IMG/VR virus record: IMGVR_UViG_3300029319_000035
Location: 29,259-62,669 of that record
Direction: 5' to 3' (one strand)
DNA: 33,411 nucleotides
Source of the DNA: a virus
In this document: piece by piece, positions 3,001 through 31,526 of the stretch
Layout: each line of letters begins with the position of its first letter
Numbering within the stretch: the stretch's first letter is position 1
The notes under the pieces: model-generated
Databases searched by the model: none
What the model saw: the letters and a program-made list of their open reading frames with translations, nothing else
What the model was told of the DNA's origin: nothing
Translations under genes and position numbers: made by a program

Positions 3001-6000
3001 AGGCATTGTTCCTTCGTTAATGCGTTCTTGAACTTCTTGCCTGGTAAAGCCAGCAAAATCATCTTCATAAATTGTAGATATCTGCAGTTTGTTTTGCTCG
3101 AGCTTTTGATTCAGTTCATAAGCACCTGCATTTTCAGAAACGCCAATCCACTTCTTTACACTTGAACCCTGTTGTGATGGCTCATCCGATTCTAACAAAC
3201 TTTCAACATCAAGTCCCAAGGAAGACAACTTAGGGTTTTGATTGAGAGGAATAACAGGCAAGCCTATTTCAATCATTCTATTGCGAACGTTGTCTGTTAT
3301 TTTGATAGCACTGTAAGGAACACCATTCGGGTCTTCGATAAGTACTTCCTGAAAAGAAATGCCAGCTTGCTTTAACTCAGACCTAATCTTGCTACCATAA
3401 GCTAAGTTGTCAGCTTGATAAGCAATAAAATCTGGACGCTCGTCACTCAGAAGAAGCTCACGAAGAGCAAGTCTTGCATCACCAAACAAGTTGTTCAGTT
3501 CCTTGGGTGGATTTTTTGCTAGTCTCTCTTGCTCGTGCTTTATCTTCTGCTTAATCAAAGCCTCTTTCTTTTTCCTTAGCTTTGTGTCCCTTATCAGTTT
3601 AACAAAACGTAATTCAAGATACAGGTTTGATATGTTAGATGCTACGTCCGATGAAGGGGTGTTTACAGCATCCAAGAACATTATTGAGTTATCTCCAAAC
3701 TCAGCACTTCGTAAAAGCAAATGAGAGTTACCTCGTTCCATTATGACTTCATTTTCACTTCTGCCTCTGAAGAAAATACTTTCAATTGTTACAGATGGTC
3801 TTTCCGTAACCAAGTTAATACTAGCCTTCCTAAGTTCCTCAGAAGCTTTGGCCCACCTAGGGTTTGTGGATAAGTCCTCTTCCCTTAGTATGCTCTCGTA
3901 AAACTTTTCATCTGTAATTCTAATGTCTTCTATCGAAGCCTCAATGCGCTCGGTTGACTCTCTTATGGCCTTGTTTGCTTCATTTCTTTTGCTTCGAATA
4001 ATCTGATCTATTTTGGTAATGGTAAATTGGCTTTTTACTTCTTCATATCCCTTTGCGTCTATTTCCTCAGAGAGTGACTTCACATCAAAAATGTTACTTT
4101 GTTTTCCAAAGTATTTTTTAAGTTGCTCGTTGCTTGTTGCTCTTTGTATCTCTACTGCGTAGCTTTGGCTGCTTCGACCTCGAATGTCTTCTAGAAGTTT
4201 TTTTGCTTTATTGATAATGTTGGCTTGATCATAAAGGCCTTCAGCTATCTCTGGAGTATCTAGTCTTTGCTGAGACAAACTAGGGTGAATTGGTAAATTT
4301 ACCGCAGTATCAACATAAGACGCCCTACCAAGTTTTCCCGCCTTGGCATTGTTTGTTTTTTCAGTAACCTTCAAATGCTCTTGATAAGACTGCATCACTG
4401 GTTTGCTTATCACACGTGATTTGTTTTTCTTTGCTTTACTGCGGCTCTTGGACAGTTCTCTATCTCTAACATCTCTACTGCTGAAGTTGTCAAAGTATCT
4501 GTTGAGATTGTAATTGAAATCTTTTTTCCTGACTTCAATCTCAGCTGGATTCTTTTTGAGCTGATAAAAAACATCATCAACTTCCCATTTGTATCGAGAG
4601 AATCCTTCTTTCATTTTTTCCATTATAAGTATCTTAGAAACACGAAGCCTTATGTCAGCGTGTTCTTCTAAGGATAGCTTATGAGGCTCTGCAAGGTGTA
4701 TTTCTCCAATCTCTATTGAGCCACCTACCTTTCTGTAAAACACGTGAGCATACTTGTCCTTATAAGATATAAGAGCCTTGTCGTATTGATCCATCTTTTT
4801 GGAAGGAGCATTGTAATTCACATCTGAAACAACTTCCAAGGTAGAGTTATCAACAAATGTGTAGTCCTCTGCATCTTTGATATATCTTACAATCTCGTCA
4901 ATCTTATTACCTGGGAGTTCTGACAGATTTAAAAAGTCAAACAAACCCAATGATTTTAAATAGGCTTCTTCTCTAAATAATAATGTCTTGTCGAAGTAAT
5001 CAAGCAAATCAGGCAGGCTGACATTCTCTTCCAAATCATTCTTGAAGGAGCTAATTTCTGATAAGACGCCTTCTGATTCTAATCTATCTATTCGTAGCCT
5101 TTCAAAAAACTTAACAGGATCTTTTCCTCTTACTACTGCAGATACTGTCAAGACAGCCATCTGAAAATCAACACTGTCGATATCGTTTCCAATTTTCGAA
5201 GACACTGCTGCCAAGGCTCTATGTGCTCTTTGGTATCCGTTTGTCTTCTTTAAATCAATGTACAGACCAATTAAACCTGGCAACCCTTCAGGACCTTTTT
5301 CTCCTTTTTGTTTTGCTCGATCCTCTAGCTTTTTGGATATGTTTTTTACCAAGACTTCATTACCTGTAATCAAAGCATCAGCTAAGGTTTGAACTGTTCT
5401 TTTGTTGGCAGCAGTCATATTCTGTACAGCCAGTGCTGCATCCGTTCTACTTTCACCAAACCGATTATAAATAATGTCAATCATATCAGATCGTTCAATC
5501 ATAACTTTATTCTTGCTTGGCTTCATACCTTGAACTATGGTGTTATCACCATTCTTGTTCGCGATATGACTGTAAACGTACCCTTGGTGAGATAACAATC
5601 TTGCTACTCCCCCTTCCGATCGATAATAACTGTCCAGTATTCTAGCTTGTTTATTAAGAGGAATTAAGTCGTGAATGTGCATATATGCTCTGGAAGTAGC
5701 AGGATTAAATGCACCAGCACCCAAAAATGCCCCCTCAATACCTCCAATCAAATAGCCTGTTAACGCTGACGCTGTAGTTTCCAGAGCACCTCGAGCAACA
5801 TATTGTCCCGGTCGATCTTTGTAGTATTGATCCTGTCTAATTTTTTGTACGGCCTGTTCGTAAAGTTCTTGATTTCTAACTGGTATTTGCCCTGTAGGAT
5901 CTTTTGGGGTGGTCATTTCAATAAATAACCCACCAGCAAGAGGGCTAACTCCTTCATACAAAGAAGCACCAACAAACTGCTTTACAGTTTGAGCTGTACT

Positions 6001-9000
6001 GGTGCTCGGAAGAGCGCGGGCTGTTTGCGCACCAAACATAACACCCTTCGTTAGTGTAGAAGGGTAAGAAAGGAAAACGCCTTCGTGATCCATCATAACG
6101 GCCTGAGCAAAACCTAAGTCTGTAGCTGCGCTATATAAAGGTCCTGATGTAGCCCCCAGTCCCACTACCAACTGTTGCTGACCTACCATAAAATCGCTGT
6201 CTTGATAAGTTAAGCCATCTACGATTCTTTCCTGCCAACTAAGTTCTAAGTTTCTTGTCGGAGTAAAATACTCCGGAATATACTTTTCATAGTGTGCTTC
6301 TAGTCCAGCAATACCACCTATAGGAACAGGAGCGTCTGGGAGCAATAAAGCTAAACCAGGACCTGCCATAGGGGTTAAACCAACAAAGTCTCTTAGGTTT
6401 ATTGCTCCAGACAAAGCAAATGGAACGTGGTCCAAAGCGTTTGTTCCTGCAAGAGCAAGTTCTCTACCAAAAAATTTATCAGCTGACTCTAAGTAAGGAA
6501 GCGAAGTCTCATATTGGCCTGGAAAGTTTTCTTTAATATATTCTTTGGTCCATTCCATAAGCTGATTGTAAGATATCTTTGGCTTGACATCAAACATCCC
6601 TTCCGCGTCTGTCTCCACTAACAACAACTCATAATTAGCTTCTATGTGGTCAAGTAGGTCTTCGCCGATAACTGGGTTTTCAAAAAACCAAGCCATCGGA
6701 TGCAGAGGCTGGCCTTCAAAATCTTCATCGCCGACTGCTTCTAAGCCGCCTGCTTGATTTTTCAACTCTTCATATCTACGCGCCCATTCAACATTCCAGC
6801 TGTTCCATCCTCCCCCTAAAACATCAGCGACAGTTGGCCCTAACACAAGTTCTTCTGGCAAAACCAAACCATATATATCATCTAAACTTAAGGCGAATGG
6901 CATTTCAGCAATACCGGCTTCAGCAACGGCAGACCCCTGCTCAAACAAAAACATTCCAAGACCAGACTCTTTGGATATAGTTCCAGCCTGAACGTCTACA
7001 GATGTGTTTCTTAAGGCGTAGTCCACCCCTTCATTAAACGTGCTGGTAAATGTTTGAAGTTGTGCTCCAGCTTCTAACTGTCTGCTGTAAGCAAGCAAGT
7101 CATCCCATTTAACTCTATTCTGCTCAACCGCGTCTTTTACAGTGGCAAATGGTCCTAAGCTATCGCCGCCAAAAAATGACTGTAAAGCCTGTGGTAAATC
7201 TCTTATGGGTACTTCAGCAAAGCTAGCCTCTAATAACTCGTCTTCACTGTTCATCATTGTGATTTGCCGCGCTACAGGAGTAGCAGCCATACCCAATGGA
7301 TTTTCACCATACTCGTATACGTCTTTCAAGGTCTGATCGGATTGTCGTAACTGCTGCTTTACTTTGGATATGTTATTTGTGTCTTCAAAAAAGATTTGTA
7401 AAACAGCCTCTTCTTTATTGGCATCGGATAAATTTAAATAATACCCTTGTGTCGCTATATTAACAAGACTTTTGATAAAAGGGTCGTCCGCCACGTATGT
7501 TTTCTTAGGATCGTATTCTTTGTAATACAAGTCCCAAAAGCCCGTAACAAACACTTCCCAGTTGATATCTTCCATTTGTATGGTTTCATACGTTCCATTG
7601 TTAACATTCTGAAGTATTTCAGAAGCCAACTCTTCTTCCTTGGATTCTAAGTCTTCTAAAGCATTTTCAAAAGCAAAGTCAGGAGTAATTATATCAAACC
7701 CTCTAACCTCTAGACCAGAAATAATACCTAAAACATCAAACCCAAGAGGAGCTCCTCGTCGATTTTCAAGCTCCAGATATACTTGTGTTAATGTATCTCG
7801 TTCTCTGATTACTTTATCGAGCTGTTCTTTTATTTGCTGCTTTGTCTCTGGGTCTTCTTCTTCGTTAAACCTTTTCGTCAAGGTAATAGCATTGTCCGAA
7901 GCATTATCTGCTTGAACTCGCGCCACGTTTATTTCCTTGTCTGCAGCACCACCAAAAATTTGTGTTGAACCAACAGTTATAAGATCATCAGCACCTTCAG
8001 AAACTTTCTGAAACATACCTCTTTCATCTGGCCCAAACGCTGCAGTTAAGTAATCTTTCCACTCTTCGTGGTTTTGTTGGTAGTCAAACTGAATTTCCTT
8101 TTCTAATTCCCTTGCAAAAAGTTTATTTGGGTCATCCTCGCTACCAACAGAAGGTAACAGGACGTCAAGATTGGCAAGCTTACTAAATACTATGAAATCC
8201 TCTCTTCTGATACCAGCCCCTCCTTGAGGTTTATCTGCAGCCTTAGAAAATTCCAGTAATGGCACATAGCGTTCAGGCATCGACCAACCTGTTTCCCAGC
8301 TATCCTTCTCAAGTGTTGGGGTAAGTCTTTTTGCATCCTCAATTTTCGCATCAAAAATTTCTTGAGTTACTTGTACAAAAGACGCGTAGTCTGTGATGCC
8401 TAGTTCTTGAGCAAGCCTTTTTACCGCTTGCTCGTCACGAGTTCTTGGGTATTCAGTGTAAACGCTGAAGACCTCTTCGAAGTTTTGTTTGAATGTAAGT
8501 GACCCATCTTGAGTTCGTTCATCCATACCACTGGCCATACCAGTAATAAACCGTTGCCATTTTAAAAGCTGTTCTTGGTTTTCTCTAAGAAGCTGAATGC
8601 GCTCAGGCTCTGTTTGAGCATAATAATTTTCTGCTTCCTTGGATTTGCTTGGATCGGCAATACCAAGAGAAACAAGGTCTGCTCTTTGGGTTTCTTTTGA
8701 ACGCTCTACATAATCTTCATAGTAGTCATCAAGGCCACTGGGAACACCATACGCAGCTATGAATAAAGCGTTTAGCTCAGAATCGGCTGCTTTCGCTTCT
8801 TGACGAAATTGTTTATTAACTCGCGCAAGAATTTTATCGCGATCGGCCGGAGTTCTAGAATAAAAATCACCCACTTCCTCTACGGCTCTGTTCAAAACAA
8901 TTTCATCAATCTGATCTTTTGCATTCAAGTATCTAGTTATCGCAGAATCTTTTCCGGTAAAGTCTGCTACTTTATCAGCTGGCAACCGACTTACAATTGG

Positions 9001-9732
9001 ATCAGCAGGGTTCAAAGGTGTAAGTTTATTTTGCTGCGCCCATAAGTTAAAAGTATTCACCGTGTTGATAAAGCTATCTAAGTCTTCTGATGTTTCCAAA
9101 CCCTTCCCGAAATCTTTTATATCTATGCTTTCTTTAACCTCTCTTCCAATAATTTCCTTAATGTTGGATTTTTGATTTTGAATGTTGTTGATATGGGTCA
9201 AGTAGTATGACTTGTATGTTGAAAAAGTTAAGTTCCGTAAAGCACCTATTTGTTCGTCATTAAAACGACTCTTATCAAAATTATCAAAGGTTTTTTGAGC
9301 CTCTGCCATTGCAAAATCTGTCACTTCTTTAAGAAGCGCGTCTGTGTCCAAAAAAACTTCTTGTGGCGTAATTTTTCTAGGCTTTGCCACTTCCACTGCT
9401 GATGGCTCTGCCACTTCCACTGTTGATTTTATATAAGCTTCTCTAACTTTCTCTTGGTCTTTCTTAAACTGCTCTTCGCTTATTAACACCTCTGGAAGTT
9501 CAACCTTAGGCTTTGCGTAATCCATTACTATGTTAATGTAACGCTGTGCCGCTGGTGTAGGATTTTCTCCAAGAATCTTTTGTTCATCAAGAACTTGTTT
9601 CCAGCTGTCCATATTAAGAGGAAGGCCTTGTTGTAAAATCTTCTTGTGGACCGACAAGTAAATTTTACGGTCAACTCCTTCTTCATGTATAAATTTATTC
9701 AGTTCTTCAAAGAGTTCTTGGTCGGTGGCCAT
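1..9732 (-). CDS. Giant virion-associated polyvalent protein (C-terminus outside the window)
   Basis: An uninterrupted frame of 3,244 codons runs from the ATG at 9732 to the left edge with no stop, so the protein is larger still. The start has AGGTAA just upstream, overlapping the stop of the preceding gene. Most of the protein is charged and helical. Gly/Ala-rich hydrophobic stretches lie near residues 1105-1144, 1177-1213 and 1319-1342. Residues about 1985-2165 resemble an ADP-ribosyltransferase-like module (FFRGRS, then ITDNVRNRM...GLP). A coiled coil lies near 3010-3085. Residues 3134-3142 (LRGIGEVKA) with Asp3158 look like a helix-hairpin-helix glycosylase core. I read only one cysteine (Cys2888). 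Known parallels are the giant ejected or polyvalent proteins of podoviruses; assignment as an ejected multi-enzyme protein is inference. I saw no T7/N4-type RNA polymerase motifs. The frame is certain, the function is not. Confidence 0.85.
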   Translation of the reverse strand, partial: MATDQELFEELNKFIHEEGVDRKIYLSVHKKILQQGLPLNMDSWKQVLDEQKILGENPTPAAQRYINIVMDYAKPKVELPEVLISEEQFKKDQEKVREAYIKSTVEVAEPSAVEVAKPRKITPQEVFLDTDALLKEVTDFAMAEAQKTFDNFDKSRFNDEQIGALRNLTFSTYKSYYLTHINNIQNQKSNIKEIIGREVKESIDIKDFGKGLETSEDLDSFINTVNTFNLWAQQNKLTPLNPADPIVSRLPADKVADFTGKDSAITRYLNAKDQIDEIVLNRAVEEVGDFYSRTPADRDKILARVNKQFRQEAKAADSELNALFIAAYGVPSGLDDYYEDYVERSKETQRADLVSLGIADPSKSKEAENYYAQTEPERIQLLRENQEQLLKWQRFITGMASGMDERTQDGSLTFKQNFEEVFSVYTEYPRTRDEQAVKRLAQELGITDYASFVQVTQEIFDAKIEDAKRLTPTLEKDSWETGWSMPERYVPLLEFSKAADKPQGGAGIRREDFIVFSKLANLDVLLPSVGSEDDPNKLFARELEKEIQFDYQQNHEEWKDYLTAAFGPDERGMFQKVSEGADDLITVGSTQIFGGAADKEINVARVQADNASDNAITLTKRFNEEEDPETKQQIKEQLDKVIRERDTLTQVYLELENRRGAPLGFDVLGIISGLEVRGFDIITPDFAFENALEDLESKEEELASEILQNVNNGTYETIQMEDINWEVFVTGFWDLYYKEYDPKKTYVADDPFIKSLVNIATQGYYLNLSDANKEEAVLQIFFEDTNNISKVKQQLRQSDQTLKDVYEYGENPLGMAATPVARQITMMNSEDELLEASFAEVPIRDLPQALQSFFGGDSLGPFATVKDAVEQNRVKWDDLLAYSRQLEAGAQLQTFTSTFNEGVDYALRNTSVDVQAGTISKESGLGMFLFEQGSAVAEAGIAEMPFALSLDDIYGLVLPEELVLGPTVADVLGGGWNSWNVEWARRYEELKNQAGGLEAVGDEDFEGQPLHPMAWFFENPVIGEDLLDHIEANYELLLVETDAEGMFDVKPKISYNQLMEWTKEYIKENFPGQYETSLPYLESADKFFGRELALAGTNALDHVPFALSGAINLRDFVGLTPMAGPGLALLLPDAPVPIGGIAGLEAHYEKYIPEYFTPTRNLELSWQERIVDGLTYQDSDFMVGQQQLVVGLGATSGPLYSAATDLGFAQAVMMDHEGVFLSYPSTLTKGVMFGAQTARALPSTSTAQTVKQFVGASLYEGVSPLAGGLFIEMTTPKDPTGQIPVRNQELYEQAVQKIRQDQYYKDRPGQYVARGALETTASALTGYLIGGIEGAFLGAGAFNPATSRAYMHIHDLIPLNKQARILDSYYRSEGGVARLLSHQGYVYSHIANKNGDNTIVQGMKPSKNKVMIERSDMIDIIYNRFGESRTDAALAVQNMTAANKRTVQTLADALITGNEVLVKNISKKLEDRAKQKGEKGPEGLPGLIGLYIDLKKTNGYQRAHRALAAVSSKIGNDIDSVDFQMAVLTVSAVVRGKDPVKFFERLRIDRLESEGVLSEISSFKNDLEENVSLPDLLDYFDKTLLFREEAYLKSLGLFDFLNLSELPGNKIDEIVRYIKDAEDYTFVDNSTLEVVSDVNYNAPSKKMDQYDKALISYKDKYAHVFYRKVGGSIEIGEIHLAEPHKLSLEEHADIRLRVSKILIMEKMKEGFSRYKWEVDDVFYQLKKNPAEIEVRKKDFNYNLNRYFDNFSSRDVRDRELSKSRSKAKKNKSRVISKPVMQSYQEHLKVTEKTNNAKAGKLGRASYVDTAVNLPIHPSLSQQRLDTPEIAEGLYDQANIINKAKKLLEDIRGRSSQSYAVEIQRATSNEQLKKYFGKQSNIFDVKSLSEEIDAKGYEEVKSQFTITKIDQIIRSKRNEANKAIRESTERIEASIEDIRITDEKFYESILREEDLSTNPRWAKASEELRKASINLVTERPSVTIESIFFRGRSENEVIMERGNSHLLLRSAEFGDNSIMFLDAVNTPSSDVASNISNLYLELRFVKLIRDTKLRKKKEALIKQKIKHEQERLAKNPPKELNNLFGDARLALRELLLSDERPDFIAYQADNLAYGSKIRSELKQAGISFQEVLIEDPNGVPYSAIKITDNVRNRMIEIGLPVIPLNQNPKLSSLGLDVESLLESDEPSQQGSSVKKWIGVSENAGAYELNQKLEQNKLQISTIYEDDFAGFTRQEVQERINEGTMPEELSEQIQAYLDKTPITQNYSFIRQSETETIESSFSVDVRDNELFIVGDDGLNDIEIRNIVFEATKDGRNAVHFNLLRSPDAKDTLMSLARSFSSTGKVDGASIRIEINNEMYDAVPPRQVPLFAKTERGETFEAIYRGNVAADATTEYKAQNTALMRRSVSAEEASSVVSNNDDIPGGMYRPNYFAEDVVIYQDKNDVWRIADYKNGKRTTRRTGKFSGASKQEAIDQIKSERLVDTNETDFVGVMPIVKSIDETIKILHQEPVYHLVIHTPEGKIRRLVIARKKQDLASRTIELSTKEPYLEGSTLVINHADGQFASLSEIDLLRKSGAKSLILATPTKKISISGEVTNPDANFFELTRVLEKDFDSLTTTESATMNDFLNKVIDDMPEDVTEGVDIGSSLVERYQDALAEELRATGLDVTIQEHKFENTEGTYVTKREGTRTGSLNLDYQFKQDDFKVTTGKTDKKRREASKLASIVGEESARVILKAEEQIRSKLRRAYRSKNVRDYTFAGVEHYEKMLGLDNLEGIPDFIQQITDNVSINLSKFKEGKLSYRDTLVAYFTSVMSQQAAELPLEQLQKTLTERNQLDSLNAVLGQTISAETGVNFGFIDAKGTVRMEDMAGAWFVTPKGQAFLERFEQLCHLIKVQLDRSTIPYKKKIKKEDAERLGLLVSSPSDRKFLWGEKLKALEEAKIDALPGEETIEVFYKHPPKGDDTKVRRLRKNFPIEPFAPLEDLYNIRAAHPTRSNNLRMYWDRNANIDLELTEAKQKKREDLTSEIEARESVLEDLERDLQNAQEKKANDKVIENILKQIDFENSKVATLKKQKEKLLEAAKLEKVQFKDIDFYQLAYDIIQTTDRMNILGKKYTGGVEYDSLFAKDVHSAARTLRGIGEVKAPFLSMQLGFGAMVTADAQEIRALIGLDPDGQAPTVDAKKNKKIRTNISKFSEAGTRGKTLDGRTIDQVYQDAIMERFKGLRQSLAEKGIELPDENWPAIIHQ

Positions 9733-22807: not shown

Positions 22808-23290
22808 TTACTTGTCCTCATTAAATGGGTCTACACCGGGTGCATTTTGTTGCCGATGATTAAATTCGGGTTTCCACCCTTGATCTTTTAACTTTCTGTA
22901 TTCAGCATAAGCCGGATGATTATCCATTTTATGCTGCACATCTTCTACAATTTTATCTTCTTCTTGGTGCTTCTGCTGTAAATTACTCATTTCGGTTGAG
23001 TAATCTATATCACCATCAATAGGCACTACGCCTCTCTCTTTTGCTTTGCTTAGTCGGTCTTTCTTGGATGTTACCATACATCCTAACCCGCGATCAAAAT
23101 ATGGGAATCTCTCACTGAACCTATCTATGTTAGGAACAGAGAGAAGTATGTCGAAATCGAGGGAGTCACACCTTTCACAAGGGTCAAAAGTATCCATCAA
23201 TAATTCGTCACCCTTAATGAACCCATAGGTCTTTCCTTCGTATCCGCATCTGTTGCATCTATAATGTCTGCTCGTTAAAAATTCACTCAC
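22808..23290 (-). CDS. Zinc-ribbon protein of the head gene cluster, 160 aa
   Basis: The N-terminus holds two CxxC pairs, Cys12-Cys15 (CNRC) and Cys38-Cys41 (CERC), spaced like an FmdB-type zinc ribbon, so a structural zinc site is likely. A conserved-looking segment (RFPYFDRGLGCMVTSKKDR) follows, then a basic helix (LSKAKERGVVP) and a charged C-terminal helix. Small zinc-ribbon proteins between portal and scaffold occur in many phages with no established function; binding of nucleic acid or of the portal are both possible. Its start overlaps the portal stop by 8 nt. Confidence 0.75.
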   Translation of the reverse strand: MSEFLTSRHYRCNRCGYEGKTYGFIKGDELLMDTFDPCERCDSLDFDILLSVPNIDRFSERFPYFDRGLGCMVTSKKDRLSKAKERGVVPIDGDIDYSTEMSNLQQKHQEEDKIVEDVQHKMDNHPAYAEYRKLKDQGWKPEFNHRQQNAPGVDPFNEDK

Positions 23291-25583
23291 CCTGTCCTCC
23301 CGATACAGCCTCTAACAACATCTGTACAGCCTGTGATTGCTGCTCAGGTGGTAGCTGCTTTGCTCTCTCTATTAATTGTTGTGCCTCTGGATTGTCTGCA
23401 AAAATCTGAGACAACGCCTCTAAGGCTTGATCAGGAGGCATTTGACTTATCTGTTGCACAACCTGTTCTATATCAGCCTGTCCCTGAGCTGGCGGAGCAG
23501 CCTCTGGCGGAGCGTCTGCTTGTTGTACTCCTGGTTGCTCGGGTTGCTCGGGTTGCTCTTCCTGAGCCTGAGCAGCCTGTCCCTGAATGTAATCATACGA
23601 AAGGTTGTTGGGGAACTCGAATTGCTCGTGGATGGTTTTATACATCTCAACTGCCAGTATTGACATTGTGCCCTGTGCTTCTTGCGCAACTTGTAAAAGC
23701 GACAGCATCCGGTCGGATAACTGCAAGATGTTATTCCGCATTTCCATCTGAGACAATGGAGAACGACCAGCTTCTGAAAATCCAATCTCAAAGTCACTGT
23801 CTATATCCTCCGGTAAAATTTCAATTAACTCACCTTCATTGTCAAGAAGCATCAATTTCATTTCAGTTCGCTTCTTCTCAGACTCTTCTCGACCAGGTTC
23901 TACTTCTGAAGCAAGGTCTATAATAGATGAATCATCTTCATCCAAGTCCTCATCTTCATCACCAATCTCTTCTATTTTTTCAGGCTTCTCGTGTGTCCAG
24001 CCTTCCTCTCCAAGAGCTATGTGCTCCTCTTCGGTTTCAGCTTTTCTCTCTTCACCTGTCTCTGGATGGTACATCATATGAGGCTTGAAGTCTTCTTCCT
24101 CTATACCCTGGTCTTCTCTCTTCTCTTGTAATTGTTCATTACCTAATTCAAAACCATCTTCATCTAGATCTTGCTCTGCTCCTTCAGAGTCTCCAACGTC
24201 ATACAAAGACGCTGTATACGCAGCCAAACACCTCTTGATTATATTTACCAAGAACAAGTCTCTTTGCTCTGCGTGTCGACCAAACTCACTCTGAGTATGC
24301 CCCTCAATTGCCATTACTTCACTGGCTGTAGCTTTGGTAACTTGACCTAACGCTGCTGGAGATATCGTTGTCCCACGGTCAAAATCACTTTCCGCCATAT
24401 TCATAGAGTTCAATATGTTGGAAGATGTCGGACCGTGAAGTATAGGTACAACTACATTCCCAAGGTTTCCTGCATACTGCTCGTCTACTTCAATAATTGA
24501 GCCATCTTCACCTGATCGAAGATCGTTCATTGCATCGGCATCTAATGCCCCTTTCGGGGTTACATAAACACGAGCATCCCTTCTGGCTGACTGAGCCAGG
24601 TAAGAACGCATTGTGTTCAGCTCCTTCTGCTGTGGTAAAAGCTGCTCTGCATATGCAATACCTCTGTAAGGATACTCAGGCTCGTGCTCAAATATAAGAG
24701 GTACAATATGAGGAAGAGGCTTACCATTTCCATCTACCAATGGTAACGGCCCCATAAATACAGGTAGTAAATCTCCATCGTATCCATCTACTACATATAT
24801 CTCGAGTCGTCCCTTGTACTTCGTACCATCTATATCATAAAAGTCATCTGTCAGATTACAGAACTCTAGTACCCTGACAAACGCCGACGAGTCATCTGTA
24901 GCAACTCCATCCTTAATACTCGCTCTCTTCGAAGTTGCCATATAATTGCCAAGATAATCATCGCGAGAAGTCCCTCCCACGTCCTCATCAAGACCATATT
25001 TGTCGATGACCTCTTGCCTAGGCTGGTAGCTAACGTGACCAACAAAACGAGCATCATCCCAATCGTGAATGTCGCTATCCAAAACCATTTCCCAATAAGG
25101 GAACACACGCATCCAAACACGATTTAAACCCTCCTCTACGGGGTCGTAGCCTACTTTTGCTCCTGCCCCCTTATACAATAGTGCTTGACGAGAGGCAGCT
25201 AACACTCGCTCCCTCATAACTGGTTGATTGAGCCAATCATTTACAAGCATCTCTGCTTTTTTTGTATCCCCTCTTGTATAAGGAGACTGACCAACAACTA
25301 CTTTTATTCGACGTGGATACAGGTTAGACAGGTATCCTGATAATGCTGGCTTCAATCTGTTTACTTCTACTTGGTCTAGTCTACCCATTTCATAGGCTGC
25401 ATTTAGGTCCTCTTGGCCCTCGATGTAACGCCAGAACCTTGTTGTATAGCTAGCTTTTGCTAAGGCCATATAAGGCTGCTCATCGTCCATTCTTGAATCG
25501 TGCGCTCTTAGATGCTCCATTACCACCTTCGGGGGTAAGACATCATCCTTGAAATCGTATCCTTTTACTTGATCTATATTCAT
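23283..25583 (-). CDS. Portal protein, 766 aa
   Basis: It forms the ring through which DNA is packaged and ejected. Visible features are the N-terminal helical part (YTTRFWRYIEGQEDLNAAYE), the wing/clip-like section (VWMRVFPYWEMVLDSDIHDW), and the core stretch PLVDGNGKPLPHIVPLIFEH, EPEYPYRGIAYAEQLLPQQK and TTISPAALGQVTKATASEVM that is typical of the portals of large podoviruses. An acidic insertion follows (about 490-590, including GDEDEDLDEDD), and the C-terminus is a Gln/Pro/Glu-rich tail. The length is within the upper range for podoviral portals. It overlaps TerL by 4 nt (ATGA), and GAGGAT serves as binding site. Identification is confident from motifs plus TerL-portal-scaffold-capsid order. 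Confidence 0.85.
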   Translation of the reverse strand: MNIDQVKGYDFKDDVLPPKVVMEHLRAHDSRMDDEQPYMALAKASYTTRFWRYIEGQEDLNAAYEMGRLDQVEVNRLKPALSGYLSNLYPRRIKVVVGQSPYTRGDTKKAEMLVNDWLNQPVMRERVLAASRQALLYKGAGAKVGYDPVEEGLNRVWMRVFPYWEMVLDSDIHDWDDARFVGHVSYQPRQEVIDKYGLDEDVGGTSRDDYLGNYMATSKRASIKDGVATDDSSAFVRVLEFCNLTDDFYDIDGTKYKGRLEIYVVDGYDGDLLPVFMGPLPLVDGNGKPLPHIVPLIFEHEPEYPYRGIAYAEQLLPQQKELNTMRSYLAQSARRDARVYVTPKGALDADAMNDLRSGEDGSIIEVDEQYAGNLGNVVVPILHGPTSSNILNSMNMAESDFDRGTTISPAALGQVTKATASEVMAIEGHTQSEFGRHAEQRDLFLVNIIKRCLAAYTASLYDVGDSEGAEQDLDEDGFELGNEQLQEKREDQGIEEEDFKPHMMYHPETGEERKAETEEEHIALGEEGWTHEKPEKIEEIGDEDEDLDEDDSSIIDLASEVEPGREESEKKRTEMKLMLLDNEGELIEILPEDIDSDFEIGFSEAGRSPLSQMEMRNNILQLSDRMLSLLQVAQEAQGTMSILAVEMYKTIHEQFEFPNNLSYDYIQGQAAQAQEEQPEQPEQPGVQQADAPPEAAPPAQGQADIEQVVQQISQMPPDQALEALSQIFADNPEAQQLIERAKQLPPEQQSQAVQMLLEAVSGGQGE

Positions 25584-27157
25584 CGTATCCTCATTTTTAT
25601 TCGGTCCATAGGATTCCTCTTCTCATGTCGAAGACGAGGCTGTCGCTTTTCTTTACCACTAAACCCTGGTAGGCGTCTACAAGCCCACACCGCCAATACA
25701 AAAGCATCAGCGTGGTCATCGTGATAACCATCCTGCCCCTCTATTCTACCTCTCTCTTCCCGAACGTGCATTAATTCTTGAATTGTTTGGTGGTCATTTA
25801 GTTCCAACCCATCGCTGTTCACCATCTGTCGGGCAAAAGAATAAGCGAGCTCTTTGTTCCCTTTGTGGGTTACCCAATCTTTACCCTTTCCATCCTTCCA
25901 AACAGGAGTCGATTCTCGATACATTGCCTTGATAACTACTCTTCCTGCACCACCTGTATTCGCCTCACACAAAACTCTCGCCCGATTGTAATACCTAGAC
26001 AGGTTGTTTAACTCTTCCGCAAACCTCGCTTCACCACCTTGGTTACAAGCGAACACTGCACACTGCTCACCATACTCATTGATCACACAGGCAACAGCAT
26101 AATCTCCACCTGTACACCAACTCGGATCACAACCAATCACATACTCTACACCAAGTTCAGGCTCTCTATATACCCTCAGTTCACTATTCTCGCTTGGAGG
26201 AAGCTCCTGTAATCGATTGTTTAAATAGTCAGAATCAAACCAACACCCTTCCAGAACAAGAAAACCATCTTCTATCGTTAAAGGAAACTCCCGACGAAAC
26301 TTGCGCTCGCCCATACCCTCTACACCATAAATCATCTCGTGACGCCAATACAACTGTTCCCAGTCCAAACCAAACTTCTGTCCCAACTGATGTTCTTCCT
26401 CATCAGGCTCCCAGGCTTTTGGAGGTGTCAATCTGTACGTCCGATGGTCACTCCAACGACTAAACAAAAACTTGATACTCTTGTTCCCTGTTCTCTCCGC
26501 TTCCTGAGCAATCAATACCCTCTCGTGATAAAAGTTTCCTGGTCCGTTCGGAGTACTTACAATTATAATCTTGCTGTCTGCTCCACCGTGCAACGTCGAT
26601 CTAATACCTGACCACACCTCTTCTGGATGAGGCCAGAACGCCAACTCTTCAGCTATAAACCTTTGGTATGTCCAACCACGACCGTGTGTATCTCCACGTG
26701 CTGTCATATGATCGATCAACGCATCAGTCCTCTCACTCATCAAAGTCTTGTCATTCTGATTTAACTTGAACGGATTGGCCTGCTTTAACTGCTTCGGCAA
26801 ATGATGGTAATACGTACAAAACTTCTTGAAAATACTCTTCGTGGTTTTGTTATGGTCAGCTACACATATCGTCCGCAACGGCTTCTGAGCTGTAAACGTT
26901 GCCCAGAATGTATGTGCACAATTGGCTGTTGATATACCTATCTGACGAGGCTTCAACACAACAACGGTCTTCACTTCCGGATCATCAAGAGCCTGTATTA
27001 AAGCTACCTGCTCTGTGAATGGCTTTGTGAAATAAGACAAATTTGCATCCGCATCCTCAAAGCGTAGCCTTGGGATAAACTGCTTAGAGTCTGCAAAGAT
27101 ATCGCTTAGTTCCACTCTTGTGTCCAACCATTGTTTTCTTCTGAACTTGCAAACCAT
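25580..27157 (-). CDS. terL: Terminase large subunit (packaging ATPase and nuclease)
   Basis: It powers DNA packaging and cuts concatemers. The ATPase part shows a variant Walker A (KPRQIGIST, residues 69-77), a Walker B (RFIAEELAFW) with the catalytic Glu, and a coupling motif (IIIVSTPNG). The C-terminal RNase H-like nuclease shows its three acidic positions: YVIGCDPSW, LCEANTGGAG and HDDHADAFVLAVW. Length is normal for the family. The ATG at 27157 overlaps the preceding gene by 52 nt and lacks a strong binding site. A GTG at 27115 would cut the overlap to about 10 nt, so the start is less certain than the gene. Confidence 0.93.
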   Translation of the reverse strand: MVCKFRRKQWLDTRVELSDIFADSKQFIPRLRFEDADANLSYFTKPFTEQVALIQALDDPEVKTVVVLKPRQIGISTANCAHTFWATFTAQKPLRTICVADHNKTTKSIFKKFCTYYHHLPKQLKQANPFKLNQNDKTLMSERTDALIDHMTARGDTHGRGWTYQRFIAEELAFWPHPEEVWSGIRSTLHGGADSKIIIVSTPNGPGNFYHERVLIAQEAERTGNKSIKFLFSRWSDHRTYRLTPPKAWEPDEEEHQLGQKFGLDWEQLYWRHEMIYGVEGMGERKFRREFPLTIEDGFLVLEGCWFDSDYLNNRLQELPPSENSELRVYREPELGVEYVIGCDPSWCTGGDYAVACVINEYGEQCAVFACNQGGEARFAEELNNLSRYYNRARVLCEANTGGAGRVVIKAMYRESTPVWKDGKGKDWVTHKGNKELAYSFARQMVNSDGLELNDHQTIQELMHVREERGRIEGQDGYHDDHADAFVLAVWACRRLPGFSGKEKRQPRLRHEKRNPMDRIKMRIR

Positions 27158-27503: not shown

Positions 27504-27689
27504 CTACTCCTTTTTTAAGATTACACCGAAGTCGTTTATGCGGCCCTCGTTCAAAGCCCTGCGTGTCCTCAACTCAATCTGCTCCTCTGTTTGACGCATA
27601 TGAACAGGGCGTCGTTCATTCAATCGACGCTCACGCTCTCTCGCCTTGTGGAGACGTATTAAATCTTGGGCACTGCTTTTTCGAGCCAT
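27504..27689 (-). CDS. Small basic protein, 61 aa
   Basis: A short, very Arg-rich helical protein (RLHKARERERRLNERRPVHM; TRRALNEGRINDFGVILKKE). Its ATG shares one base with the stop of the preceding gene (TAATG), and it ends 2 nt before the next gene, so it is embedded in a coupled series and is probably real despite its size. Binding to nucleic acid or to the neighbouring terminase proteins is possible. No family is recognised. Confidence 0.6.
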   Translation of the reverse strand: MARKSSAQDLIRLHKARERERRLNERRPVHMRQTEEQIELRTRRALNEGRINDFGVILKKE

Positions 27690-28486
27690 TATTTACCACG
27701 CTTCTTCGGTTTTGGGTTCTCATCAACTATAGCACTATTCCGAGCGGTCTGTAGCTCAGTGATAAGACCTGCCATCATATCTTGCATTGTTGTCATTTGC
27801 TCTCGCATTTCTAACAAAGACGCGTCCTGCTGGGCAATCTTCTCTTGTTGAACCTTCATTGTCTCTTTGTACTTCTCTATGTCTGGATCTACTACAGACT
27901 GTACCTGCTTTGCTCCCTGATTCTCAAGCAACTCTTTCAACATCTTAGGCGTTAAAGAAGTCTCTCCACCAGCTTTCACTCGACCCATATCATATTGTAA
28001 ATCTCCTGCCCCATTGATGTCCACAAACTCCATTCCAATAACCAGGTACTGTATGTCTTCAGCTATATCTATGGTCTGTATACGACCATCTTGGTCCTTG
28101 CCTACAGTCTGATTTCGGTGTGTCTCTACTGTCTCAATCTTCTGCTCGTAATTCAACAACTCCCACTTCCCATTCGGCTGTACACTGGATCGGGTGTCAA
28201 TACACCACTCGAGCATCGACTCCATCATAAATACAAATGTCGGTGTATCTACTCTACCAAGAAGATTTTGTAGACGAAACTGCTGCACATAACTCCAGGT
28301 TCTGTTTCCTTTGACGTTGGTCTTAGGCTCTTTGGTCACGTGATGCTTCATTACATTGTCAATCATCTTCTTCATATACGTAAGATCCAAGATCTTTGAG
28401 TTGACCTTCTCTGCATCCTTCTTTACTGGCTCTACATATGTGCCCAGTCGTCGGCTTTGCTTCCGGTGGTTGTTAATAATCCCCAT
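27689..28486 (-). CDS. Hypothetical protein with C-terminal coiled coil, 265 aa
   Basis: Not recognised. The N-terminus is basic. The middle (about 55-170) is mixed alpha/beta and includes TFVFMMESMLEWCIDTRSSV and IQYLVIGMEFVDINGAGDLQ. Residues about 205-250 form a coiled coil (YKETMKVQQEKIAQQDASLL, then MREQMTTMQDMMAGLITELQ), and the end is basic (KPKKRGK). The binding site CAGGAGA lies 6 nt before the ATG. It overlaps the regulator gene by 14 nt and couples to the small basic gene, which places it between a Cro-like regulator and the terminase genes. Confidence 0.65.
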   Translation of the reverse strand: MGIINNHRKQSRRLGTYVEPVKKDAEKVNSKILDLTYMKKMIDNVMKHHVTKEPKTNVKGNRTWSYVQQFRLQNLLGRVDTPTFVFMMESMLEWCIDTRSSVQPNGKWELLNYEQKIETVETHRNQTVGKDQDGRIQTIDIAEDIQYLVIGMEFVDINGAGDLQYDMGRVKAGGETSLTPKMLKELLENQGAKQVQSVVDPDIEKYKETMKVQQEKIAQQDASLLEMREQMTTMQDMMAGLITELQTARNSAIVDENPKPKKRGK

Positions 28487-28952
28487 TGTTTCTCCTGATT
28501 TTTTCTAGTTGTTCTTTGTAAGCATCCAATCTTGCACTGCGCTCCTTTATCCGCTTACGTTGTTCTTGCTTCTTCTTTAATAGGTGTTCTTTCTCTTTGT
28601 CTAATTTTTGCTGCTCGGCTCTATCTGCATTCCGACGCTCTTCAAGCTCATCTGCTATCTCTCTGGCCAATGACCTGCGCAGGTTACTACGTATATTTGT
28701 TCGACGCTTATCTCCACCTTTCGCTAATAATTCAAAGATTTCAATCCTTATTCGCTGGGCATCTCGAATTAACTCACCCAAATCTGCGTCCGACAGCTGT
28801 AAATAATCAGCCCAAGCAATCAACGCTGGGAAATCTGGCACTTTTCGCTTCGCTCCCTTCGCAAACCAATGACTACTTGCTGATTTTCCGTATCCAGCTA
28901 CCTCTGTAGCTTCCTCTTTATCGAGTATTTTTAGGATTTTATCTAACGTCAT
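28473..28952 (-). CDS. Cro/CI-like HTH regulator with coiled-coil tail, 159 aa
   Basis: Residues about 5-60 look like a Cro-type helix-turn-helix: LDKEEATEVAGYGKSASSHW is the turn region, and RKVPDFPALIAWADYLQL matches the third-to-fifth helix layout of Cro/CI families. From about 60 on, the protein is a long charged helix (RRTNIRSNLRRSLAREIADE; LDKEKEHLLKKKQEQRKRIK) that may drive oligomerisation. No ribosome binding site precedes the ATG. A minus-strand promoter candidate puts +1 at the A of this ATG, suggesting a leaderless mRNA as for lambda cI from PRM. It is transcribed away from the plus-strand operon, so autoregulation and repression of that operon are likely inferences. Confidence 0.75.
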   Translation of the reverse strand: MTLDKILKILDKEEATEVAGYGKSASSHWFAKGAKRKVPDFPALIAWADYLQLSDADLGELIRDAQRIRIEIFELLAKGGDKRRTNIRSNLRRSLAREIADELEERRNADRAEQQKLDKEKEHLLKKKQEQRKRIKERSARLDAYKEQLEKIRRNNGDY

Positions 28953-28958
28953 ATCAAA

Positions 28959-28987
28959 AGAGTATTGACAAACAAAGTAAATGTCAA
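28959..28987 (-). promoter_or_regulatory. Minus-strand promoter candidate for the regulator and late genes
   Basis: On the minus strand, TTGACA (28987-28982) is followed by a 17-nt spacer and TACTCT (28964-28959). The -35 is perfect. The -10 matches only the three most conserved positions (T, A, final T). The expected start is 28952, the A of the regulator ATG. It overlaps the plus-strand promoter almost entirely. Confidence 0.55.
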
Positions 28988-28990
28988 TAC
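28962..28990. promoter_or_regulatory. Inverted repeat, probable operator, centred in the divergent promoters
   Basis: GTATTGACA (28962-28970) and TGTCAATAC (28982-28990) are perfect 9-bp inverted arms separated by 11 nt. Each arm contains one of the two -35 boxes. It is a likely site for the adjacent Cro-like regulator, but part of the symmetry could simply reflect the mirrored promoters. Confidence 0.65.
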
Positions 28991-28993
28991 CAT
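28965..28993 (+). promoter_or_regulatory. Plus-strand promoter candidate for the recombination operon
   Basis: TTGACA (28965-28970), a 17-nt spacer and TACCAT (28988-28993) form a sigma70-like promoter. The expected start near 29000 gives a 27-nt leader that carries GGAG before the ATG at 29027. Its -35 lies opposite the -10 region of the minus-strand promoter, so both cannot be occupied at once. Confidence 0.55.
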
Positions 28994-28997
28994 TGTA

Positions 28998-29011
28998 TTG
29001 TATCTATACAA
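28998..29011. promoter_or_regulatory. Second inverted repeat at the start of the plus-strand transcript
   Basis: TTGTAT (28998-29003) and ATACAA (29006-29011) form perfect 6-bp arms around a 2-nt centre, covering the predicted +1 of the plus-strand transcript and ending just before its GGAG. This is a classic operator position for blocking that promoter. Confidence 0.55.
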
Positions 29012-29026
29012 CACTTGGAGTAATCT

Positions 29027-29728
29027 ATGAAATTCAATATAATTAATGCCGGAAAACAAACCAAAACTACTAAACTTAAATGCCTCATCTATGGCGACTC
29101 CGGCGCAGGTAAAAGCTTCTTAGCTGCTACATCACCAAAACCACTGATCTTGCTCACAGAACCAAACGGACAAGCATCAATTATGCACTCAAACCCAAAT
29201 GCTGACCTCATTCACATCACAAATACAAGAGAACTTGGAGATATACTCAAGTCACTTACAGATGAACCACAACAATGGGCAAAATATGACACCCTTGTCA
29301 TTGATTCACTCACAGAAGTACAAAGACTGTGTAAAGATGACCTCACAAATAAAGGTAGAACTCAAATGAAACTCCAAGACTGGGGCAAACTCGCAGACTT
29401 TATGAGAAGATTTATACGTGCCCTTAGACAAATTCCAAAAAATATTGTATGCTTGGCTCTCTTGGAAACGCAATTCGAAGAAAGTACCGGACAAAGACAC
29501 CTAAGACCAGCATTCGAAGGTAAAAAAACCTCCGGTGAAATCGCCCAGTTCTTTAACTTTGTAGGATTTCTATACGCCGCACAGAATAAAGAGGAAAAAA
29601 GAACATCTCGATACCTGATGCTCGAAGGAAACGAACGAGTACTCTGCAAACCTACATACCCACTTACCGGAGTCGTCAAAGACCCCAACATTAAACAACT
29701 CTTCCAAAAGATTACAGGCCAAAAATAA
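29027..29728 (+). CDS. Sak4-like RecA-fold P-loop ATPase, probable phage recombinase, 233 aa
   Basis: The N-terminal half shows a Walker A (GDSGAGKS, residues 23-30) within LKCLIYGDSGAGKSFLAAT and a Walker B (YDTLVIDS, Asp93). A typical mid-region follows (MKLQDWGKLADFMRRFIRAL, then PKNIVCLALLETQ). Layout and length fit the AAA_24/Sak4 family, RecA-like proteins that support single-strand annealing and recombination in phages. GGAG lies 6 nt before the ATG. It shares a TAATG overlap with the nuclease gene downstream; a recombinase paired with a RecB/Cas4-like exonuclease is a known phage combination. A role in recombination-dependent replication or repair is inferred. Confidence 0.8.
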   Translation: MKFNIINAGKQTKTTKLKCLIYGDSGAGKSFLAATSPKPLILLTEPNGQASIMHSNPNADLIHITNTRELGDILKSLTDEPQQWAKYDTLVIDSLTEVQRLCKDDLTNKGRTQMKLQDWGKLADFMRRFIRALRQIPKNIVCLALLETQFEESTGQRHLRPAFEGKKTSGEIAQFFNFVGFLYAAQNKEEKRTSRYLMLEGNERVLCKPTYPLTGVVKDPNIKQLFQKITGQK

Positions 29729-30858
29729 TGCTCGCTTACCACCCAACTACCATATCTATGCACTATAACCACTGCCCACACGCTGTTACCCTGTGGAAAA
29801 TGAAAATGCCATACGACAGATCTGTCTTCCATACCGGAGTTATAGCCCACGCTATACTCGAGGAGATTGGCAAAAACCCACAAGAAGAACCTCGCGTTAT
29901 TGCAGATAAGGTCGTTGAAAAGTATTGCTCATCAGGACGCTCCTATGATGGAAACCCTGAACCACCTGCGCCTTTTAAAGATGCCATTGAGGGGGCGAGC
30001 CTCGCCCTCGATTGGCATAGCAGATATCCCGTGCCAAATGGACCGCATATCTACCACGAACACCCCTTCGCCTTTGACCAAGACTGGAATGAAGTCGGAT
30101 ACTACGATACTACAGCTCGCTTCAGAACTCTCCTAGATGTCGTCGAAATACACGACACAGATAACACAAGAACAGCAATCATCAGAGACTACAAGACTTC
30201 TTGGGTAGCTACCGCAGATGAACTCGATTCATTTCAACGAAGATGCCAAGCCGTTGTCGTATGGCTCGTATATCAACCAGACATCATTGTACTCGAAATC
30301 AGTAACCTGAGACTCAAATGGAACTTCCGAAGAGAACTCATCGTCAACGAAGAAGCAAATACACTGCAAAAATGGATGGACGAAATTACACTCGCCATCA
30401 AAACACTCGACAACGAACTCAAACCTAACCCGGGTATCGGCTGTATCAACTGCCCATACTCACCAAAATGCGACCACTTCGATAAAATGTACAAAGCCGA
30501 CGATGTTATGAAACGCTATATCGCTGCTAAAGAAGTCGTCAGCAAACTTGAACCACAAATCAGAAAAGCTGCCAAGAACCAACCACCTAAAGCTATGAGC
30601 CTCGGAAAAGTAGGCTATGCCAAGAAAGAACGGAAGAAAGTTCTACCAACCGCTCAAGCTACACTCGTTCAAAAATGGAAGGAACAAGATGGAACTGTTG
30701 ACGAACTCTTCCAACAACTTGACCTAGGTGTAAGAACTATCGAGAAAATCGCTCGTATCGTCACCAACAACAAGAAAGACCGTGAGGAACTTATCAGCAA
30801 ACTCACACGTACCGAACAGTACAGCTCGTTTGGTATTCACAAGGACAAAAAGAAGTAA
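29728..30858 (+). CDS. PD-(D/E)XK nuclease of RecB/Cas4 type with four-cysteine cluster, 376 aa
   Basis: The nuclease core shows GVIAHAILE (residues 37-45, the RecB-type G-x3-H-x2-l-E motif), Asp137, and Asp154-x-Lys156 (RDYKTS), with Gln174 after it. Cys16 near the N-terminus and Cys239, Cys242 and Cys248 near the end of the core (GIGCINCPYSPKC) give the C-x(n)-C-x2-C-x5-C pattern of the 4Fe-4S nucleases AddB and Cas4. A basic helical C-terminal part of about 125 residues follows. It overlaps both neighbours by one base. It probably resects DNA ends for the upstream Sak4-like protein. Confident as a PD-(D/E)XK enzyme; the Fe-S cluster is inferred. Confidence 0.85.
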   Translation: MLAYHPTTISMHYNHCPHAVTLWKMKMPYDRSVFHTGVIAHAILEEIGKNPQEEPRVIADKVVEKYCSSGRSYDGNPEPPAPFKDAIEGASLALDWHSRYPVPNGPHIYHEHPFAFDQDWNEVGYYDTTARFRTLLDVVEIHDTDNTRTAIIRDYKTSWVATADELDSFQRRCQAVVVWLVYQPDIIVLEISNLRLKWNFRRELIVNEEANTLQKWMDEITLAIKTLDNELKPNPGIGCINCPYSPKCDHFDKMYKADDVMKRYIAAKEVVSKLEPQIRKAAKNQPPKAMSLGKVGYAKKERKKVLPTAQATLVQKWKEQDGTVDELFQQLDLGVRTIEKIARIVTNNKKDREELISKLTRTEQYSSFGIHKDKKK

Positions 30859-31526
30859 TGCAACTCAACCTATTTGAAGAAAAACCACAATCGTTTCAAT
30901 ACCCTACCACTGAACCGCCACAAACCTACGAGGTTATCTACTGTGACCCTCCTTGGGACTACGATGGACGCTCCTTTCTCAACGGTAAAGCACACGAAAC
31001 TGGCTCGGCTTCAGACCACTACCCAACGATGAAACCAAACGAACTATGCGAAATGAACGTCAAACACATCGCAAGTAACAATTGTATCTGCTATATGTGG
31101 ACTACTGGACCTCAACTCGATATATCCATAGACGTCCTCAAAGCTTGGGGATTTAAATTCAAAACAATCGCGTTCGTCTGGAACAAGGCAATCACAAACC
31201 CCGGCTTCTACACTATGTCTTCCTGCGAAATCTGTATCGTCGGAACAAGAGGCGCAATCCCAAAACCAAGAGGCACTAGAAATGAAAAACAATACTTCTG
31301 CCAACAAAGAACAAAACACTCCAGAAAACCAAAAGAGTTCATCAAACGCATCTCAAGAATGCACCCCACTCAAAACAGAATCGAACTCTTCTCAAGACAA
31401 GCTCACCCCGAATGGTACTGTTGGGGACACGACGCAACAGGAAACGGTTCTGTGGTCATCCCCAGGCTCGAAGACAAAAATATACCTGATCACATTGCCA
31501 AAGTAATGTGGCCCATACCATTCTAG
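30858..31526 (+). CDS. MT-A70 family DNA adenine-N6 methyltransferase, 222 aa
   Basis: The catalytic DPPW motif (residues 30-33, in YEVIYCDPPWDYDGRS) is followed by family features: a region choosing the target base (NNCICYMWTTGPQLDISIDV), FKTIAFVWNK, and a late RISRMHPTQNRIELFSRQAH with WYCWGHDATG. The small size and layout match phage MT-A70 methyltransferases, which use S-adenosylmethionine to make N6-methyladenine. No restriction enzyme lies nearby, so protection of phage DNA from host nucleases or marking of replication/packaging sites is more likely than a restriction-modification pair. The target sequence cannot be read. The ATG overlaps the upstream stop (TAATG). Confidence 0.9.
   Translation: MQLNLFEEKPQSFQYPTTEPPQTYEVIYCDPPWDYDGRSFLNGKAHETGSASDHYPTMKPNELCEMNVKHIASNNCICYMWTTGPQLDISIDVLKAWGFKFKTIAFVWNKAITNPGFYTMSSCEICIVGTRGAIPKPRGTRNEKQYFCQQRTKHSRKPKEFIKRISRMHPTQNRIELFSRQAHPEWYCWGHDATGNGSVVIPRLEDKNIPDHIAKVMWPIPF

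Follow-up and report, generated by a model that had tools for sequence, protein, structure and literature searches.

Overlapping divergent promoters interlocked in an inverted repeat: a probable two-way control region between the recombination and structural genes of a phage

Between two oppositely oriented gene blocks of an uncultured phage lies a perfect inverted repeat, and the question it raises is whether this repeat is an operator, the accompaniment of a single promoter, or two promoters packed into one another. The window analyzed here, a stretch of 33,411 nucleotides, corresponds to bases 29259–62669 of a 62,669-bp virus record in which every gene to the left of the element runs leftward for more than 40 kb, including the terminase, portal, and structural genes. 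Neighboring leftward genes lie at most 84 nt apart or overlap by up to 52 nt, except for one 702-nt gap near the far end. The gene adjoining the element encodes a 159-aa helix-turn-helix (HTH) protein, the presumed regulator (28473–28952, minus strand), and its end is overlapped by a 265-aa gene to which gene calls and family searches assigned no function (27689–28486, minus). Further downstream in the minus direction, family searches identified the terminase large subunit (25580–27157, minus), along with a portal-like protein (23283–25583, minus) whose weak SU10 portal match falls below the curated cut-off. A 5251-aa open reading frame occupies positions 1–9732 (minus) and extends past the window; two pieces of it inside the window were searched and gave no Pfam match.

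To the right of the element, three genes assigned by family searches run rightward: a Sak4-like ssDNA-annealing ATPase (29027–29728, plus), which is the first gene of the plus operon and is preceded by the Shine-Dalgarno sequence TGGAG (29016–29020, plus), a PD-(D/E)XK exonuclease (29728–30858, plus), and an MT-A70 DNA methyltransferase (30858–31526, plus). This layout agrees with the original prediction, which placed recombination genes on the plus side, here the annealing ATPase and the exonuclease together with the methyltransferase, and a regulator followed by packaging and structural genes on the minus side, where the HTH, terminase, portal, and structural genes succeed one another without long gaps. 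Reference phages offered distant matches at best, limited to Sak4, terminase, and methyltransferase, and no convincing match to the regulator.

The repeat itself spans 28962–28990 and reads GTATTGACA-N11-TGTCAATAC, its left arm (28962–28970) and right arm (28982–28990) being 100% complementary. The inner 8 bp of each arm, TATTGACA on the left and TGTCAATA on the right, consist of TA, the opening two bases of the opposite promoter's −10 hexamer, and TTGACA, the arm's own −35 hexamer. The plus strand accordingly reads TTGACA-N17-TACCAT (−35 at 28965–28970, −10 at 28988–28993), and the minus strand TTGACA-N17-TACTCT (−35 at 28982–28987, −10 at 28959–28964), so that both the predicted combination of TTGACA, a 17-nt spacer, and a TA...T hexamer on each strand and the predicted placement of the −35 boxes in the arms of one inverted repeat can be seen directly in the sequence. 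The plus promoter was recovered by the promoter scan. The minus −10 is weak in this phage, matching the consensus at three of six positions, and the scan, which required at least 4/6 at the −10, did not list it; a strict-site search recovered the minus promoter. Each −35 directly abuts the −10 of the other promoter and lies inside the other's spacer. Given arms of TA plus TTGACA around an N11 loop, the 17-nt spacer is automatic for both promoters, so that “repeat” and “promoter pair” are two names for a single arrangement.

Such an arrangement is far too rare to be a chance repeat, an explanation that we rejected. For a record of 62,669 bp, base composition predicts 0.006 occurrences of TTGACA-N11-TGTCAA and about 3e-6 of the full promoter pair; none of 60 dinucleotide shuffles of the record contained the pair, and the arms are conserved. 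The strict pattern TTGACA-N17-TAnnnT has three exact sites in the whole record, two of which make up the pair at 28962–28990.

The geometry of the pair corrects one part of the original prediction, which had described the promoters as face to face. The plus transcript is predicted to start near 29000, 7 nt past the −10, and the minus transcript near 28952, at the A of the regulator's ATG; these starts, placed from the positions of the hexamers, lie 48 bp apart and outside the promoter pair, with transcription leading away on either side. The promoters are therefore overlapping and divergent, standing back to back. They lie on opposite strands with a −35/−10 distance of 17 nt, within the 16–18 nt of overlapping divergent σ70 promoters, a designation that assumes recognition by the host's main sigma factor. 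The textbook footprint of RNA polymerase extends from −55 to +20. With footprints of this size, and by geometry only, the two predicted footprints overlap by about 63 bp and the core elements overlap such that two polymerases should be unable to bind together; simultaneous occupancy is therefore not expected. Mutual exclusion of the two promoters would follow, in line with the predicted use of one direction at a time, and the element very probably functions as a pair of overlapping divergent promoters.

Comparison with relatives, located in IMG/VR by protein-guided searches, indicates which bases have been kept. Seven lineages (the window, L004, L005, L006, L009, L010, and L056) were compared in an anchored, gap-free alignment. 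Six were recovered by protein and not by the repeat; L056 was recovered through the repeat itself, which makes it non-independent for the arms and independent for the flanking bases. All 16 inner arm bases are invariant in the seven lineages, compared with 1 of 11 loop bases (Fisher p = 1e-6). Within the 10-nt left flank, the sole invariant base is T6 of the minus −10, and the right flank has three invariant bases, among them T6 of the plus −10; both of these thymines lie outside the repeat. The minus −10 reads TAnnnT in all lineages, its T1, A2, and T6 being invariant, and the plus −10 reads TACnAT or TATATT in the relatives. In three related records the element is present as a single copy per record.

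The original prediction had proposed the presence of the repeat in relatives with the same gene order as a check. This expectation is borne out in part: the repeat is kept in all seven lineages whose regulator is at least 54% identical, and L023 and L268, the most diverged relatives, whose regulators are 29% and 36% identical, lack it despite the same gene order. By this comparison, the element belongs to this clade and does not simply accompany the gene order. The Sak4 gene of L056 has been swapped for an unrelated gene (L056:2797–3657) with a weak match to Gp3-like, recombination directionality factor-like proteins, and the promoter element is unchanged.

The presumed regulator was modeled with AlphaFold2 (pLDDT 84) as an N-terminal helical bundle followed by a 73-residue C-terminal helix. 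Residues 1–65 weakly match XRE, HigA, and C-protein folds (best Foldseek E-value 0.05 against the PDB, Z at most 6.1). No Pfam or PHROG family and no Cro or HTH_3 model matched the protein at E≤0.01, and HTH_31 reached E = 0.03, which does not pass this cut-off. The model and these matches suggest that it is probably an XRE-like HTH protein; of the earlier label “Cro-like,” the weak XRE-type fold match of residues 1–65 is retained, and the assignment to Cro finds no family match. Elsewhere in the record, at L044:3837–4085 (record coordinates), an 82-aa HTH_3 (XRE) protein is encoded that might also regulate these promoters.

The start of the regulator gene is itself informative. In six of the seven lineages (the window, L004, L005, L006, L009, and L010), its ATG lies 6–7 nt past the minus −10, and the start lacks a Shine-Dalgarno sequence, which most other genes of the phage possess. 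The simplest reading of these two features is that the regulator mRNA is leaderless, as it probably is in these six lineages. The exception is L056, whose GTG start follows a leader of roughly 40 nt.

A second conserved element, ATTGT-N11-ACAAC (28992–29012, plus), was recognized by lineage comparison and motif search immediately beside the repeat. Its center falls at +2 relative to the plus promoter and at −50 relative to the minus promoter, and it overlaps the plus start. Of the seven lineages, six have it at a constant distance from the repeat and L010 lacks it. The motif occurs exactly twice in the whole record, and its other copy, at record position 10218, lies just downstream of the sole other strict TTGACA-N17-TAnnnT promoter, on the plus strand. 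A structure in the leader of the plus mRNA was considered as the cause of its conservation and rejected, as no stable fold was obtained in three sequences, which makes a DNA site likelier than an RNA site. On sequence grounds, the element is the best candidate for the regulator's putative site, and a protein bound there would block the plus promoter and could help the minus promoter.

Taken as a whole, the locus is best explained as a two-way control region of two overlapping divergent σ70-type promoters, a reading to which we assign a probability of roughly 0.7. The inverted repeat would be a geometric consequence of packing the two promoters together, and host RNA polymerase would occupy the element facing either right or left, never both ways at once. 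In the rightward orientation, it would yield the Sak4/exonuclease/methyltransferase mRNA from about 29000; in the leftward one, the mRNA would begin at the ATG of the 159-aa HTH gene, or directly beside it, and read through into the packaging and structural genes. The structural genes could also possess further late promoters missed by a σ70 scan. The element thus configured probably determines which of the two halves of the viral gene set is transcribed. More speculatively, a regulator, most simply the 159-aa HTH protein, may bind ATTGT-N11-ACAAC, covering the plus start in repression and sitting at −50 of the minus promoter for possible activation, and its binding would turn recombination off and the late genes on.

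What kind of decision this would be is suggested by the gene content. A lysis/lysogeny decision was considered and set aside: no tyrosine or serine recombinase, integrase, or resolvase was found in this record and three relatives, records that may be incomplete, and nothing supports it. An early-to-late choice, or one between recombination on and off, fits the gene content better. We hold as tentative, and on balance doubtful, a broader proposal in which the locus is an early/late switch: the palindrome would be merely two interlocked consensus promoters, and the regulator, translated from a leaderless mRNA, would bind a second dyad over one start and at activating distance from the other, a logic resembling lambda PRM/PR without lysogeny. 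On the same proposal, the palindrome would be a general convergent design, found in phages, as in a RecE/RecT phage described below, and in bacterial divergons of a regulator and its target. There is experimental precedent for a switch built from overlapping divergent promoters (PMC4207663). In E. coli two-way promoters, occlusion changes output only where one direction or both are highly active (PMC12825309), and at low basal activity the two directions need not compete (Warman et al., PMC12825309), so that exclusion alone is no proof of a switch.

The alternatives to be weighed against this reading draw partly on occurrences of the same palindrome outside phages. A genome scan for the full element returned at least 117 stretches. 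Among the 117 matches listed, 62 adjoin both bigR-like (ArsR) and persulfide-dioxygenase-like genes and 16 more adjoin only the latter, the neighbors having been typed by simple peptide signatures, so that both names are a reading of protein sequences and not the result of a family search. The palindrome between such divergent genes, with its reciprocal promoters, occurs in many Burkholderiales (L145–L218 and others), and in the Burkholderiales matches listed, loop positions 2–4 on each side and base 15 are more than 95% constrained (position 3 to C/T).

It is possible, if somewhat unlikely, that the phage repeat is primarily an operator, with the 159-aa HTH protein binding the TATTGACA half-sites and repressing both its own gene and the recombination operon, the promoters being secondary. 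A perfect dyad adjoining an HTH gene invites this view. So does the Burkholderiales case, in which identical arms separate an ArsR-type regulator gene from the divergent gene it probably controls, and in which the inner loop shows the conserved symmetry that an operator would have. An operator, however, should constrain its inner bases, and the phage loop, the would-be inner part, is conserved at a single position; what is conserved is the promoter positions, since every conserved arm base is a promoter base and the conserved bases beyond the arms include T6 of both −10 hexamers. The half-site centers are also 20 bp apart, which is wide for a single HTH dimer, and distant relatives with a related HTH protein lack the repeat. 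Clearly unlikely, in our assessment, is the view that the plus promoter alone matters, with the minus −10 arising incidentally from the palindrome and other promoters serving the regulator and structural genes. The minus −10 is indeed TACTCT or TAGTCT (3/6) in two lineages, and in every lineage the plus −10 is at least as close to the consensus; set against this are the invariant T1, A2, and T6 of the minus hexamer, the last of them outside the repeat, the −10-to-ATG spacing fixed at 6–7 nt in six lineages, and the lack in the record of any further minus-strand site of the form TTGACA-N17-TAnnnT. We consider it highly improbable that the palindrome imitates a Burkholderiales BigR/SqrR-type operator and places the phage under a host sulfur-sensing repressor. 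Its 8-bp arms and 11-bp spacing do equal those found beside bigR-like or persulfide-dioxygenase-like genes in 62–78 of the 117 matches listed, and one loop half of the window, L004, and L006 resembles the Burkholderiales loop. Yet the phages do not keep the marker positions of the Burkholderiales element, namely T−15/A+15 and inner bases 2–4 on both sides, and the lineage loops score from 1.4 to −29 against a Burkholderiales mean of 11.8; we therefore rejected mimicry of the BigR operator.

As a pair of overlapping divergent promoters, the phage element resembles several systems without coinciding with any. In lambda PRM/PR, divergent promoters lie between a regulator and early genes, the regulator mRNA from PRM is leaderless, and a site blocking one promoter stands at activating distance from the other. 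The phage promoters overlap far more tightly, the structural genes lie downstream of the phage regulator, this regulator is not shown to be CI or Cro, and no integrase was found. The Burkholderiales bigR-like divergon shares with the phage the TATTGACA-N11-TGTCAATA core, T6 of both −10 hexamers, and a position between a regulator and a divergent gene. It differs in that symmetry and conservation extend to its loop and −10 hexamers, as is typical of an operator, and in having an ArsR-type regulator where the phage has a probably XRE-like one.

The Pc/Pr promoters of the Bacillus subtilis plasmid pLS20 likewise diverge from a common stretch in which each promoter's −35 falls at its partner's −10. 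One drives a regulator gene and the other a large operon, and a switch through polymerase exclusion and the regulator has been proposed (PMC4207663). A switch of the pLS20 type also involves a regulator that binds around both promoters with opposite effects on them, for which the phage offers ATTGT-N11-ACAAC as a candidate site. In pLS20 the boxes coincide, whereas in the phage they abut, offset by one hexamer, so that the reciprocal coincidence typical of pLS20 is absent; moreover, one pLS20 promoter is far from the consensus and regulator-dependent, while both phage promoters have a perfect −35 (PMC4207663). Unlike Pc/Pr, the phage promoters together form one exact palindrome, and the DNA loop is a further difference, none being known in the phage. 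The bidirectional promoters of Warman et al. are similar in that polymerase binds symmetric DNA in two orientations and fires divergently, singly (PMC12825309, PMC10268837). The phage element is not of that kind, as those promoters share a −10 and start 7–25 bp apart (PMC10268837), in contrast to separate −10s and predicted starts 48 bp apart, and its symmetry comprises the −35 and the first two bases of the −10 instead of a shared −10. The principle of overlapping two-way promoters is already known, and the compact palindromic version is a little-described variant of it. Small, conserved, and easily cloned, the element offers a test case for how the choice of polymerase orientation routes viral transcription, and it suggests an exact −35/−10 interlock as a recurrent design for two-way promoters, different from one in which a −10 is shared.

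In viral contigs, a general enrichment of the N11 palindrome was considered and rejected (32 stretches, compared with 53 for the N14 control). Eight of the 32 represent the family as first found by protein, L056 having been added later, and most of the others fall inside open reading frames. An unrelated 74-kb phage contig (L058:7536–9692) carries the element, with both −10s present, between an 81-aa open reading frame and RecE-like/RecT-like genes. No relatives of this contig were found for a conservation comparison, and the HTH match of the 81-aa frame is weak (E = 0.014), so that the contig is a suggestive further case. The palindrome also occurs in Lachnospiraceae/Clostridium, in the vicinity of sigH-like genes, and in Pseudanabaena, where a 230-aa gene lies downstream of it (L147, L153, L206; L154, L211, L212), in each case with neighbors on the same strand. 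To the left of the window, a second divergent junction (L044:7930–8010, record coordinates) separates primase/helicase genes from rightward genes and contains palindromic AT-rich DNA, including TTGTATGTACAA.
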